NCBI RefSeq assembly: GCF_024055795.1
Contig: NZ_JAMXMY010000006.1
Location: 1 to 64,000, forward strand
Direction: 5' to 3'
DNA from: Actinoallomurus purpureus
GTDB lineage: Bacteria; Actinomycetota; Actinomycetes; Streptosporangiales; Streptosporangiaceae
DNA length: 64,000 nucleotides
Within the stretch, counting starts at the first letter, position 1. Every line of letters starts with the position of its first letter. The notes below the pieces were generated by a model that was given only the letters and a program-made list of their open reading frames with translations, searched no databases and was not told the origin of the DNA. The position numbers and the translations under genes are program-made. Of this stretch, positions 49,865 through 56,027 are shown piece after piece.

Positions 49865-49893
49865 TAGACTGGCACGTCGTGATGCAGCCGTGA
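49865..49893 (+). promoter_or_regulatory. ftsE promoter with a four-codon leader frame
   Basis: TAGACT at 49865-49870 is followed eight bases later by GTG ATG CAG CCG TGA (49879-49893). The TGA overlaps the ftsE start codon as GTGA. A near-leaderless mRNA would thus translate a mini-frame that re-initiates at ftsE. The same CCCCTAGACTG 11-mer also occurs about 92 bases upstream (49770). Confidence 0.4.
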
Positions 49894-50588
49894 TCCACTT
49901 CGATAACGTCACCAAGGTCTATTCGCACCAGAGTCGACCGGCCCTCCAGGGTGTCAACGTGGCCGTGGAGAAGGGCGAGTTCGTCTTTCTCGTCGGTCCT
50001 TCCGGTTCCGGCAAGTCGACCTTCCTGCGCCTGATCCTCAAGGAGGAGCGGCCGACGCAGGGAGGCATCCAGGTCGCCGGTAAGGATCTGAGTCGGCTGA
50101 CCAACTGGAAGATCCCGCACCTGCGCCGCCGCATCGGCTGCGTGTTCCAGGACTTCCGGTTGCTCCCCAACAAGAACGTCTATGAGAACGTCGCGTTCGC
50201 TCTCGAGGTCATCGGGAAGCCGCGGCGCTTCATCCGCAAGGTCGTCCCGGAGGTCATCGACCTGGTCGGCCTCGAGGGCAAGTCCCACCGGATGCCCGAT
50301 GAGCTGTCCGGCGGTGAGCAGCAGCGTGTCGCGATCGCGCGGGCGTTCGTCAACCGGCCGATGATCCTGCTGGCCGACGAGCCGACGGGCAACATCGACC
50401 CGGCGACGAGCATCGGCATCATGAAGGTGCTCGACCGGATCAACCGGACGGGCACGACCGTCGTGATGGCGACGCATGACGCGGCGATCGTCGACGCCTT
50501 CCGTAAGCGAGTGGTCGAACTGGAGGACGGCCGCGTCGTGCGCGACCAGTCGCGCGGCGTCTACGGCCAGGCGTACGGCGGCGTCTAG
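49890..50588 (+). CDS. ftsE: Cell division ATP-binding protein FtsE
   Basis: 232 residues, GTG start. ABC ATPase: Walker A Gly-Pro-Ser-Gly-Ser-Gly-Lys-Ser-Thr, Q-loop Val-Phe-Gln-Asp-Phe-Arg-Leu-Leu, signature Leu-Ser-Gly-Gly-Glu-Gln-Gln-Arg, Walker B [10 protein letters not shown] and the switch His of Ala-Thr-His-Asp. It pairs with FtsX at the membrane and couples ATP hydrolysis to activation of cell-wall hydrolases at the division septum. Only 57 bases separate it from ftsX. No ribosome site is seen before the GTG. Confidence 0.96.
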
Positions 50589-50645: not shown

Positions 50646-51551
50646 ATGCGCGTACAGTTCGTTCTTCAGGAGATCTGGATCGGTCTCCGCAGGAACCTCA
50701 CCATGACCATCGCGCTCGTCGTGACCGTCGCCATCGCGATGGCGCTGTTCGGCACCGGTGTGCTGCTGAAGATGCAGGTCGACAAGTCGAACAACTACTG
50801 GTCGAACAAGGTCGAGGTCTCGATCTACCTGTGCAACAAGCTGAGCGCCAACCCGGCCTGCAAGAAGGCCGCGCCAACGGCGGAGCAGAAGGGAGAGATC
50901 CAGAAGCAGCTCGAGGGCATGTCGCAGGTGGCGAAGGTCACCCCGGAGACGGCGGAGCAGGCGTTCCAACGCGCCAAGGAGCAGTTCAAGGACAGCCCCG
51001 GCATCGCCGGCTCCATCCAGCCCGGTGACATCCCCGACTCCTTCCGGGTGAAGCTCAAGGACCCCAAGGACTTCGCGGCGGTCGTGGCGCAGATGAACCA
51101 GCGGGCGGGCGTCGACCAAGTGGTCAACGAACGTGCCATCCTCGAGAAGTTCTTCAAGATCCTCGGTGGTCTGCAGTGGGCGGCCCTGACCATCGCCGCG
51201 ATCCAGCTCATCGCGGCCGTGCTGCTGGTGGCGAACACCATCCGTCTCTCGGCGTTCAACCGAAGACGGGAGACCGGCATCATGCGGCTGGTCGGCGCCT
51301 CCAACATCTACATCCAGTTGCCGTTCGTCCTCGAGGGCGCGATCGCCGGCCTCGTCGGCGGGGTCTTCGCCGCCGTTCTGCTGAGCTTCTCCAAGGTCTT
51401 CCTGCTCGGCAGGCTGCAGAAGAACCTGCAGTTCGCGACGCCGTTGAGCTGGGTCGACGTGACGACGGTCATCGTCGCCTCGATGTGCTTCGGCGTGGTG
51501 CTGTGTGCCCTGGCGTCGTTCCTCACCCTGCGCCGCTACCTCAAGATCTGA
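50646..51551 (+). CDS. ftsX: Cell division protein FtsX
   Basis: 301 residues. A cytosolic N-terminus and membrane helix (about 20-45), a large extracytoplasmic loop (about 46-170) containing two cysteines (Tyr-Leu-Cys and Ala-Cys-Lys-Lys), then three further helices of the FtsX/permease domain with Glu-Thr-Gly-Ile-Met-Arg-Leu-Val-Gly-Ala-Ser. The extracellular loop contacts peptidoglycan hydrolases such as RipC in mycobacteria. No NlpC/P60 hydrolase is adjacent here; the S41 protease and PBP homologue that follow may be functionally linked. Confidence 0.95.
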   Translation: MRVQFVLQEIWIGLRRNLTMTIALVVTVAIAMALFGTGVLLKMQVDKSNNYWSNKVEVSIYLCNKLSANPACKKAAPTAEQKGEIQKQLEGMSQVAKVTPETAEQAFQRAKEQFKDSPGIAGSIQPGDIPDSFRVKLKDPKDFAAVVAQMNQRAGVDQVVNERAILEKFFKILGGLQWAALTIAAIQLIAAVLLVANTIRLSAFNRRRETGIMRLVGASNIYIQLPFVLEGAIAGLVGGVFAAVLLSFSKVFLLGRLQKNLQFATPLSWVDVTTVIVASMCFGVVLCALASFLTLRRYLKI

Positions 51552-51606: not shown

Positions 51607-52773
51607 ATGCCCCGGCTGACCGGTCGTGTGCTCCGCAGGGCGGCCGCCGTGGCCGCCCTGGCGTTCGCGTACGCCATGGACGCCGGGGCGGGCGGGCCGG
51701 ACACCGGCGTGCCGGCACACCCGGAGGCGTCCCGGAAGGATCACCGGCCGGTCGAGCAGCCGATGGCCCAGGCGTACAGCGCAGCGGCGGATCCCGCGCG
51801 AGAGCGCGCCGCGGTCGAGAAGACGCTGCGCCGCCTCGGTGACCGGTGGGCGCGGTTCTACACGGCGGCGGAGTTCGGCGGCCTCGAGGAAACCCTGAAC
51901 GGCTGGTACAGCGGCGTGGGCCTGTGGTTGGAGAAGACCGGGAAGGACGTCCGGATCGTCGGCGTCCAGCCGGGGTCTCCCGCCGAGCGTGCGGGCGTAC
52001 GGCCGGGTGACGTCATCTCGGCGGTCGACGGCATCGCCACGCGCGACCTGACGGTCGCCACCGTCGCCGCGGCGCTGCGCGGACAGCCCGCCACCAGCGT
52101 CGGCCTCGCCGTGCGCCGCGACGGCGTCCCCCTGCGGTTCGCGCTGGTGCGCGCGGCGATGGCGTCGCACGACGTGGACGCGTCCTTCACCCCCGACGGC
52201 GTCGTGGTCATCCGGATCGCCGCGTTCACGCGAGGGGTCGGACGGGAGGTGCGCGAGGCGGTGGCCGGACGTCCCGGGCACCGCGGCGGCGTCCTGCTCG
52301 ACCTGCGGGCGAACCCCGGCGGCCTGCTGGACGAGGCGGTCGAGACCGCGTCGGTCTTCCTGTCGGGCGGAACGGTGGTGACCTTCGAACGCGCCGGGTC
52401 CCCGCCGGAGCGGCTCCTGGCCGGCCCGGACGGCGACACCACCGTCCCTCTCGTCGTCCTGGTCGACGGAGGAACGGCCAGTGCCGCCGAGGTCGTCGCG
52501 GGCTCATTGCGTGATCGAGATCGCGCAGTGATCGTCGGATCGCGTACCTTCGGAAAGGGGTCGGTGCAGGAGCCGTTGCGGCTGGCCGACGGATCCGCGA
52601 TCGAAGTCACCGTCGGTCGATACCGGACTCCGAGTGGCCGTAACCTCGATGGGTCCGGAATCGATCCCGACGTCGCGGTCAACGCGAACCGCCCACCCCG
52701 GGAGGCCGAGCGGCGCGCGCTCACCGTCGTGCGCGGACTGCTGGCCACCCTGCCGACGAAGGACCGAGGCTGA
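51607..52773 (+). CDS. S41-family C-terminal processing peptidase
   Basis: 388 residues. N-terminal signal/anchor (about 8-28), a PDZ domain (about 100-185; Gly-Val-Gly-Leu-Trp-Leu-Glu and Gly-Ser-Pro-Ala-Glu-Arg-Ala-Gly-Val) and the protease domain with the catalytic Ser292 in Gly-Gly-Thr-Ala-Ser-Ala-Ala-Glu and Lys317 in Thr-Phe-Gly-Lys-Gly-Ser-Val-Gln. Such Ser/Lys proteases trim exported proteins. TACAAT six bases before the ATG and no ribosome site indicate a leaderless mRNA separate from ftsX. Next to smpB in many actinomycetes. Confidence 0.92.
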
Positions 52774-52777
52774 GTCA

Positions 52778-53251
52778 TTGCCACGCGAAGAGGGACGCAA
52801 ACTGATCGCGCAGAACAAGCGCGCGCGTCACGATTACCACATAGAGGACACGTACGAGGCGGGCCTCGTGCTCACCGGCACCGAGGTGAAGTCGCTGCGC
52901 GCCGGACGGGCCAACCTCACGGACGGGTACGCTCTGATCCGCGACGGAGAGGCCTGGCTCGAGGGAGTGCACATTCCCGAATACACGATGGGGACGTGGA
53001 CCAACCACGCGGCGCGTCGTCCCCGCAAGCTCCTGCTGCACCGGCGAGAGATCGGCAAGCTGATCGCTAAGACGAACGAGCCCGGCCACACGCTGGTCCC
53101 GCTGGCCCTGTACTTCAAGGACGGCAAGGCGAAGGTCGAGATCGCGGTCGCGCGCGGCAAGCGCGAATACGACAAGCGACAGGCCATCGCCAAGCGGGAC
53201 GCCGCCCGGGAGATGGAGCGGGCTCGCGCCGCACGGCTGCGGAGGCGCTGA
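52778..53251 (+). CDS. smpB: SsrA-binding protein SmpB
   Basis: 157 residues from a TTG at 52778. It binds tmRNA and brings it to stalled ribosomes. Conserved features: Asn-Lys-Arg-Ala-Arg-His-Asp-Tyr near the start, Gly-Thr-Glu-Val-Lys-Ser-Leu-Arg, [12 protein letters not shown] and the basic tail with Lys-Arg-Asp-Ala. An ATG-led start further upstream would overlap the protease gene by more than 100 bases. The gene for its RNA partner, ssrA, lies 2.4 kb downstream. Confidence 0.95.
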
Positions 53252-53253
53252 GG

Positions 53254-55116
53254 GTGGGCATCCGACGGCTCCGGTCGACGGCCGCGCTGGCCGCGACCCT
53301 GCTGGTCACCACGACGAGCGCCGGCTGCTTCGCCGAGCCCTCGCCGCTGCCGACCATCCGGGACTTCCTCGTGGCGTGGCAGAACAGCAACTACCGCAAC
53401 GCCGCGAAGCAGACCAACGGCGACCGGGACGTGGTCGCGGCGGCCCTTGGCGCCGTACCCGCCCAGCTGGACCTCGCGTCGCTGCATCTCGCGCTCGGCC
53501 GCGTTCGGCAGAACGGCGAGGACGCGACCGCCCAGTTCGCGGTGAACGTCGACCTCGGGGACGGCGGCTCGCCGTGGAGCTACGGCAGTTCGATGCGGCT
53601 GCACCGCACGAACGGCACCTGGAAGGTCGTCTGGAGCCCGTCGATCATCCATCCGGACCTGGGTCCGGGCCAGCGGCTGGCCATCGTCACGAAGACGCCG
53701 GTGCGCCAGCACATCCTGGACAACCGGGGCAAAACGCTCCTCAAGAAGGTCAATGTCGAGATCTTCGGCGTGACGCCCGGCAGACTCGCCAACGCGGAGC
53801 AGACCCTCGGCCAGCTCGCCAAGATCACGCACTTGGACAAGGACCGCGTGATCGCCCACGTACGGTCCGCACCTCCGCAGACGTTCCTGCCGCTGGTCAC
53901 CCTCCAGACCCCCGACCAGGCCGGCGACGCAGCCCAGTTGCGGCAGGTTCCCGGCGTCGAGCGCCGGTCCCGCCTGTCGTACGTCGCCCCGGCGGTCGCC
54001 GACGAGATCGTGGGCAGGCTCGGGCCGGCCACCGCCGAACGCCTCCAGCAGGTCGGCGCGCCGTACCAGCCCGGCGACACGATCGGCGTGTCCGGGCTGC
54101 AGGTCCTGCAGCAGCGGACCCTGGCCGGCACGCCGACCGTCGATGTCGTGGCGCAGGATCCCTCCGGAATCAACCCGAAGGAGCTGTTCGAGGTCCGGGG
54201 CGCCGAGAGCCAGTCGGTGACCACGACGATCGACCGCAAGACGCAGAACGCCGCCGAGAGCGCCCTCAGGAGGGTGCGCTACCCGGCATCGCTGGCCGCG
54301 ATCGACCCGGCCACCGGCAACGTCCTCGCCGCTGCGAACAACGCCGCGTCGCAGCGGAAGTACGGCGCGGCCAAGGGAGATGACGCCTCGCAGGAGAACA
54401 GCGCCGCGCTGAACGGCCACTACCCCCCGGGGATGACGTTCAGCATCGTGACCACCCGCGCGCTCCTGCAGTACCCGAACCAGAAGATCACCTCGCCGCT
54501 GCGCTGCCTGAAGGGCACCCAGGTCGGCGGGCAGACCTTCACCTACTCAGGTCCTGTGGGGAAGACGTTCCAGGCCAACTTCGCGGTGGGCTGCACGACG
54601 GCGTTCGCCAACCTGTACCGCAGCATCGCGCCCCAGGACCTGCCCGCGAGCGCGGCCCGCTTCGGGATCGGAGCCCCATGGAGTCTGCCACTGCCCTCGT
54701 TCTCCGGTTCGGTGGCGGTCCCGGCCAACGACGCCGAGCGCGCCGCCGAGATGGTCGGGCAGGGCAGGATCGAGGTCAGCCCGCTGTCCATGGCGCTGGT
54801 CGCCGGGGCGGTCAGCAGTGGCACCTGGCGGCCCCCGCAGCTCCTCAAGGACGCCTCACCGTCGGTGCCGCCCAAGAACACGGACCCCTCAGACGGGATC
54901 CCGACCCTGCAGGGCCTCATGCAGCGCGCCGTGGTGAGCGGCACCGCGAAGGGCACCAAGGTCTCCGGGGGCGTCACCGCCACGGTGCCGTACCGTAACG
55001 GACAGTACGTCTCCTGGTTCGTCGGCTACCGCCAGGGTGTGGCCTTCGCGATCGCCGTGGAGGGCAAGGCCCCTGCGGACGACCTGGCCGCGAAGTTCGT
55101 GAAGGCGCAGAGCTGA
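53254..55116 (+). CDS. Penicillin-binding-protein homologue lacking all catalytic motifs
   Basis: 620 residues, GTG start two bases after smpB. Lipobox Ser-Ala-Gly-Cys near residue 25, an NTF2-like MecA-type domain (about 30-140), a PBP dimer-type domain (about 145-310) and a transpeptidase fold (about 325-615; Val-Gly-Gln-Gly, Ser-Pro-Leu-Ser-Met-Ala and Trp-Phe-Val-Gly-Tyr-Arg are kept). The acylation motif Ser-Thr-Phe-Lys is Met394-Thr-Phe-Ser397. The second motif Ser-x-Asn is Gly446-Cys-Thr448. The expected Lys-Thr-Gly strand reads Gly-Gly-Val-Thr-Ala-Thr around 573-577. It should not bind beta-lactams covalently and may be a structural or regulatory partner in septal wall synthesis. Confidence 0.88.
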   Translation: MGIRRLRSTAALAATLLVTTTSAGCFAEPSPLPTIRDFLVAWQNSNYRNAAKQTNGDRDVVAAALGAVPAQLDLASLHLALGRVRQNGEDATAQFAVNVDLGDGGSPWSYGSSMRLHRTNGTWKVVWSPSIIHPDLGPGQRLAIVTKTPVRQHILDNRGKTLLKKVNVEIFGVTPGRLANAEQTLGQLAKITHLDKDRVIAHVRSAPPQTFLPLVTLQTPDQAGDAAQLRQVPGVERRSRLSYVAPAVADEIVGRLGPATAERLQQVGAPYQPGDTIGVSGLQVLQQRTLAGTPTVDVVAQDPSGINPKELFEVRGAESQSVTTTIDRKTQNAAESALRRVRYPASLAAIDPATGNVLAAANNAASQRKYGAAKGDDASQENSAALNGHYPPGMTFSIVTTRALLQYPNQKITSPLRCLKGTQVGGQTFTYSGPVGKTFQANFAVGCTTAFANLYRSIAPQDLPASAARFGIGAPWSLPLPSFSGSVAVPANDAERAAEMVGQGRIEVSPLSMALVAGAVSSGTWRPPQLLKDASPSVPPKNTDPSDGIPTLQGLMQRAVVSGTAKGTKVSGGVTATVPYRNGQYVSWFVGYRQGVAFAIAVEGKAPADDLAAKFVKAQS

Positions 55117-55607: not shown

Positions 55608-55979
55608 GGGGGTGACCGGTTTCGACTTCGGTATGTCGAGACACGGGGAAGCGGGCCGAGGGCTGCGGTTATGACCTCGTTAATCCTGTGACCGCAAACG
55701 AACAAGTGCCAACTCTAAGCGCACTCAGTTCGCCCTTGCCGCCTGAGGCTAGGTAGCGAACTTGTCAGCCCGGGAGTGTCTCCGGCCCGGGACCTGGCAT
55801 CGCTAGGAGACTCAACCTGCCACTCCGGCCACGGGAGTGACGGGGAAACCTAACAGTGGCTGAGCCTGTCGGCGACACGCCTGCGTGAGCGCCGGGGCTG
55901 AGAAAACGACTAGCAGGCTGCGCCCGGAGAAGCCCTGTCTTGGTACTGAAGGACGCGGGTTCGATTCCCGCCACCTCCA
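55608..55979 (+). ncRNA. ssrA: Transfer-messenger RNA
   Basis: 372 nt. The 5' end GGGGGTG pairs with CACCTCC at the 3' end to form the acceptor stem; the T-arm GCGGGTTCGATTCCCGC and the 5' GGTTTCGAC motif are typical. The tag frame starts at GCC 55708-55710 and reads Ala-Asn-Ser-Lys-Arg-Thr-Gln-Phe-Ala-Leu-Ala-Ala, ending at TGA 55744-55746. The terminal CCA is not encoded (ACGA follows). It rescues stalled ribosomes with SmpB and marks proteins for degradation. Confidence 0.95.
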
Positions 55980-56027
55980 CGAGGCGGGCCTGTGTGCTCG
56001 GTGGCTTTGGCCACCTTCGCGCAGGCC

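Follow-up and report, generated by a model that had tools for sequence, protein, structure and literature searches.

A class B penicillin-binding protein relative encoded beside smpB that lost its catalytic motifs once and is retained across an actinomycete lineage

We analysed a 64,000-nucleotide stretch of the Actinoallomurus purpureus genome (the window; NCBI order Streptosporangiales; closest named records, Actinoallomurus soli, 78%, and Actinoallomurus spadix, 76%), in which a reading frame for a penicillin-binding protein (PBP)-like product, here called pseudo-PBP, lies between smpB and ssrA.

49890..50588, + strand: ftsE, an ABC ATPase (ABC_tran), named from its position beside ftsX
50646..51551, + strand: ftsX, from an FtsX_ECD match
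51607..52773, + strand: S41 peptidase with a PDZ domain, from the domain search
52778..53251, + strand: smpB, directly upstream of the pseudo-PBP ORF (PF01668, E 1.1e-62); start codon putative
53254..55116, + strand: pseudo-PBP ORF, 620 aa with a GTG start, from profile matches and relatives
55608..55982, + strand: ssrA (tmRNA), downstream of the pseudo-PBP ORF, from RNA gene prediction

The domain searches and the tmRNA prediction agree with the preliminary description, which had placed the ORF next to ftsEX, an S41 protease, smpB and ssrA. Only 2 bp separate the smpB stop codon from the GTG start, and a GGAGG is present ahead of it at 53241-53245, suggesting that pseudo-PBP is probably translated together with smpB; ssrA follows about 0.5 kb 3' of the ORF. 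The predicted protein has a signal peptide and three domains.

53254..53328, + strand: signal peptide with lipobox-like TTTSAGC ending at Cys25 (loose lipobox pattern)
53344..53673, + strand: MecA_N (NTF2-like) domain, residues 31-140 (PF05223, E 2.2e-12)
53695..54168, + strand: PBP_dimer (pedestal) domain, residues 148-305 (PF03717, E 5.6e-9)
54295..55071, + strand: Transpeptidase domain, residues 348-606 (PF00905, E 2.5e-19)

All three domains scored above the Pfam curated cut-offs and follow the order of a MecA-like class B PBP, the same as that of Enterococcus PBP5 and Staphylococcus PBP2a (PF05223, PF03717 and PF00905), which marks the protein by sequence as a relative of the MecA/PBP2a type. 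The best solved relatives by sequence were 6c84 (E 1.6e-20), PBP5 chains (mostly about 3e-19) and PBP2a chains (2e-18 to 8e-17), and the NCBIfam equivalog cut-offs were missed for PBP4_5_Efaec (84.7 against 700 bits), MECA_PBP2A (50.5 against 750) and pbp2_mrdA (106.5 against 455). TTTSAGC, which fits a loose lipobox pattern, has a counterpart Cys in 75 of 88 members of the clade described below, and the remaining 13 have a hydrophobic stretch, judged by eye, without the lipobox Cys; membrane attachment is thus probably kept by one means or the other, with lipidation predicted. At the positions of the three catalytic motifs, the following replacements were found.

54433..54444, + strand: MTFS for SxxK, residues 394-397, from alignments (Lys397 in 0/107)
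54589..54597, + strand: GCT for SxN, residues 446-448, with Cys447 invariant, from alignments
54970..54981, + strand: GVTA for (G)KTG, residues 573-576 (Lys, Arg or His at 574 in 0/107)

Residues 391-397 read PPGMTFS, and the landmarks GQG, SPL and WFVGYR are retained, so that the preliminary description, which had reported the loss of all three motifs from an otherwise recognizable fold, held when the translation and alignments were re-read. Misalignment of the motifs was judged unlikely, as separate MAFFT runs on overlapping sets gave the same columns.

The clade as examined comprises 107 genomes, 106 from the window's own family (f1) and one from f2 (f2 and f3 being two more families of the order). 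A row counted as a member when the retrieved sequence had smpB upstream of it in the same orientation, which makes adjacency within the 107 a matter of selection; of the retrieved rows lacking smpB, L048 alone was without SxxK. Loci were chosen as best matches or by hand, in part one for each genus, with genus g63 over-represented. Left out of the counts were the duplicate loci L001, L111, L045, L097, L098, L099, L100, L105, L071 and L072, the broken paralogue L052, and L172 and L189, from genomes already counted; the 107 also exclude the contig-end-cut genes of G066, G067, G108, G256 and G262. None of the 107 genomes retains an intact SxxK, SxN or KTG, which excludes chance motif loss and answers the question, raised in the preliminary description, of whether an alignment with relatives would find the triple loss conserved. 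Asn448 persists in two members and Ser394 in seven, and Ser446 was retained in 37 of 89. Entropy at the motif columns was 2.9 bits (394), 2.9 bits (448) and 3.3 bits (577) in the clade, compared with 0-0.25 in other rows. Transpeptidation and penicillin acylation depend on these Lys and Asn residues, as is established in PBP chemistry; with both Lys missing from every member examined, and the Asn left in just two, it is very unlikely that these proteins carry out DD-transpeptidation or are acylated by penicillin.

Among 48 other MecA-like PBPs, by comparison, SxxK was present in 47, SxN in 48 and KTG in 47, the exception both times being L048. Eighteen of the 48 are f1 and f2 paralogues at other loci, all intact, and one of them, L051, belongs to the intact-looking PBPs of the window's own genome. 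Outside the clade, five active smpB-adjacent relatives from other actinomycete families (L025, L030, L038, L040 and L102; three f3, one f9 and one f37) share the smpB position, the architecture and a Cys pair with pseudo-PBP but differ in that STFK, SCN and KTG are intact in all five.

The possibility that the protein is still an enzyme, using another nucleophile, is raised by Cys447, which lies inside the second motif and is invariant in 107/107 members. This residue has a candidate partner:

54505..54507, + strand: Cys418, probable disulfide partner of Cys447, from the alignment

Cys occupies column 418 in 105/107 members (L002 and L003 are one residue off), and the same pair was equally invariant in the 48 other MecA-like rows, suggesting that Cys418 and Cys447 probably form a structural disulfide shared by both groups and making Cys447 an unlikely nucleophile. 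In addition, the Transpeptidase columns conserved at 85% or more in the clade offer no new polar residue that replaces Ser and both Lys, and we regard retention of enzymatic activity by such means as very improbable.

In a tree of 137 rows, 20 of them with unusual composition, built with the motif columns removed by a quick LG+G4 search, the 89 motif-less proteins formed one clade (SH-aLRT 100) and motif loss changed state once. Loss of SxxK over all rows required two changes, L048 being the only row outside the clade without it. The motif loss is lineage-wide and has one origin on the tree. The intact group nearest to the clade is either the f3 proteins or the f1 paralogues, and because this fork is open, the orthology of the active smpB-adjacent PBPs to the motif-less clade is argued from their position. 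The f2 protein, which branches at an open fork basal to the rest of the clade, has SVFQ and so keeps Ser394 without the Lys, suggesting that the SxxK Lys may have been the first to go.

Other PBPs with altered motifs were also observed. L048 (G052, family f15), with TAFK for STFK and TTG for KTG, is an independent degenerate MecA-like paralogue outside the clade. The window's genome encodes a class A PBP-like protein, L166 (G000:C2:281205-282833), in which the SxxK Lys is replaced (SSFA); its relatives have SSFH in L167 and SSFD in L168, L170 and L171, the pattern was not found in L169, and of eight genomes from the genus two gave no match at E 1e-120. L166 seems to be a second PBP of the genus whose acylation motif is damaged. 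An active-type MecA-like PBP (L052/L156, G000:C48 about 50006) is apparently broken in the window's genome, where a 360-aa C-terminal frame contains SCN and KTG with SxxK not in frame, and its likely counterparts by motif likeness in other species of the genus, L066-L070, keep SxxK, SxN and KTG.

With its catalytic motifs gone, pseudo-PBP might also be a decaying pseudogene, carried as a passive passenger between smpB and ssrA. However, 106/107 members extend to the alignment's C-terminal end, the other, L035, being truncated where its contig stops, and dN/dS (NG86, residues 30-606) was 0.18-0.41 in 18 clade pairs sharing members, as against 0.15-0.50 in ten pairs, also sharing members, of active proteins. 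Moreover, pseudo-PBP was matched at E 1e-60 in 248 of the 249 genomes of the order, motif state being read in 107, and in the sole miss, G067, the contig stops just past smpB, after 53 residues of the gene; at E 1e-3 matches were obtained in 59 of 60 genomes (41 of the order and 19 of the class only). A pseudogene was rejected on the open frames, the dN/dS and the conservation, and is scarcely credible. The combination considered in the preliminary description as contrary to a selected role, intact motifs in close relatives with pseudogene decay here, was likewise not what we found, intact smpB-adjacent relatives occurring only in other families. By these sequence criteria pseudo-PBP is a pseudoenzyme, in which the domain has been kept and the catalytic residues lost under purifying selection across the clade.

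Although the reading frame is preserved, constraint within it has shifted. Transpeptidase-domain dN/dS was 0.16-0.70 in the clade and 0.15-0.35 in active proteins, reaching 0.70 in L119/L130 and 0.42-0.45 in pairs with the window protein, which suggests that part of the domain may be drifting. On a fixed topology, the tree length of the clade's Transpeptidase domain was 1.22 relative to MecA_N and 0.96 relative to the pedestal, whereas the same ratios in three other groups were 0.59/0.44, 0.42/0.52 and 0.50/0.67, the last including L048. Terminal branches were compared between 88 of the 89 motif-less rows (one was too short) and 30 full-length active-type rows outside f1 and f2, including the degenerate L048; the median ratio of the Transpeptidase rate to that of the stalk (MecA_N plus pedestal) was 1.14 (n=88) versus 0.59 (n=30; Mann-Whitney P 9e-13, branches treated as independent) and exceeded 1 in 54/88 versus 1/30. 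Relative to the stalk, the Transpeptidase domain of the clade thus evolves about twice as fast as that of full-length active relatives, and what is normally the slowest part of the protein now evolves about as fast as the stalk. The stalk is not always the more conserved part, as in L117/L124 and L006/L007 for MecA_N. Columns with conservation of 95% or more numbered 18 in the clade and four in the other rows for MecA_N, 14 and two for the pedestal, and 42 and 51 for the Transpeptidase domain, the other rows having greater diversity and some gaps. Entropy of the pedestal in a small matched set was 1.22 in the clade versus 0.69 in the active f1/f2 paralogues, a result we discounted because just one of these 18 paralogues covers 80% of each of the three domains; comparison of the stalk with these shorter active paralogues was dropped as unsafe in favour of the full-length rows outside the group.

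At seventeen columns, conservation of at least 90% in the other rows drops to under 50% in the clade (394, 397, 446, 448, 503, 518, 574-579, 586, 587, 600, 605 and 610); ten of these columns belong to the motifs or to the three positions that follow KTG. Conversely, residues including Ala50, Arg141, Ala143, Val173, Pro175, Leu214, Gln287 and Trp476 are near-invariant in the clade (106-107/107) and reach no more than 44% elsewhere. These patterns bear on whether pseudo-PBP could be a non-covalent receptor, whose altered cleft would still hold stem peptides or beta-lactams and either signal their presence or sequester them. Retention of the Transpeptidase domain and conservation of G393, F396, G471, G502, W588 and G591, which presumably lie at the cleft, would fit such a role, but the motif columns vary freely, with no common replacement seen in the clade, which disfavours a ligand receptor, and a Pfam search found no signalling domain in pseudo-PBP. 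We consider a receptor of this kind unlikely.

The gene order around pseudo-PBP was compared in 94 loci. The S41 peptidase gene lies upstream of smpB in 33 of them; among the 61 loci without it, ftsX ends 13-158 bp before smpB in 60, L009 having too little sequence. A tmRNA was found downstream on the same strand by ARAGORN in 81 of 87 loci, the 18 later-added genomes being left out of this count; two of the other six, L007 and L035, run into the end of a contig, and in the remaining four an Rfam search placed ssrA 2.3, about 14.5 or about 19 kb downstream or, in one case, on another contig. The order ftsX-(S41)-smpB-PBP might suggest that pseudo-PBP is an FtsEX-specific regulator that docks on FtsX and controls activation of a septal hydrolase or synthase. 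However, the order is common to motif-less and active forms and takes in smpB and ssrA, which are not known to have a wall role. Because active relatives share it, the ftsEX neighbourhood lends weak support to a septal role and names no partner, and gene order by itself was not accepted as a functional link; FtsX may be a partner, and a dedicated FtsEX regulator is rather unlikely. Thus, where the preliminary description had proposed a non-catalytic role under selection as a regulator of septal wall synthesis, the selected non-catalytic role gains support from the lineage-wide loss, its single origin and the purifying selection, whereas the septal part is left weak.

The data are probably best explained by an ancient PBP pseudoenzyme that lost catalysis once and has been kept as a membrane-anchored scaffold or regulator of wall synthesis acting through its stalk. 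A MecA/PBP2a-type class B PBP adjacent to smpB would have lost DD-transpeptidase chemistry once, before the family radiated, and would since have been kept as a non-catalytic, membrane-anchored extracytoplasmic protein. Most likely the stalk is the working part and binds a component of the wall-synthesis machinery, for which an active PBP, a SEDS synthase or the FtsEX complex of the neighbouring genes are candidates, and the Transpeptidase domain may serve as a structural or interaction surface; a protein partner is favoured because the relative conservation of the stalk is raised. Absence of activity, scaffold or regulatory role, partner and site of action are what we infer for pseudo-PBP. 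Such a scaffold would be expected to function despite beta-lactams, because a PBP without catalytic residues should not be acylated. The window's family includes many antibiotic producers. We put forward more tentatively the fuller proposal of a lineage-wide, beta-lactam-proof scaffold or activator of wall synthesis, fixed when the lineage began and encoded alongside ftsEX, in which selection has moved away from the Transpeptidase domain and towards the stalk.

Compared with PBP5 and PBP2a, pseudo-PBP is without all three motifs, constraint is no longer strongest in its Transpeptidase domain, and its gene is chromosomal and fixed beside smpB. Among the matches listed in a search covering titles, the beginnings of abstracts and few subscription papers, we found neither a description of pseudo-PBP nor an experiment on it. 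In published work, catalytically inactive PBP 2B supports division of Bacillus subtilis through a structural role (PMC5656894), and in a methicillin-resistant Staphylococcus aureus strain depletion of PBP1 inhibits growth whereas inactivation of its transpeptidase does not (PMC9426605), although PBP catalysis is often required too, this activity being described as essential in a methicillin-sensitive background (PMC9426605), and mecA alone did not replace PBP1 activity (PMC7617827). The role of pseudo-PBP may be likened to this need in division for PBP 2B and PBP1 apart from catalysis. However, PBP 2B and PBP1 are active enzymes inactivated in the laboratory, whereas the inactivation of pseudo-PBP is natural and family-wide.

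Laboratory active-site mutants, among them those of PMC5656894 and PMC9426605, have served to study the non-catalytic roles of class B PBPs, and evolution appears to have produced such a mutant a single time and retained it throughout a large family. Annotation by domain only would count pseudo-PBP as a drug target. The motif-less clade may offer a natural system in which to locate the part of a PBP that carries the non-catalytic function, and, if the scaffold interpretation is true, pseudo-PBP would be a separation-of-function allele that arose naturally in a class B PBP.
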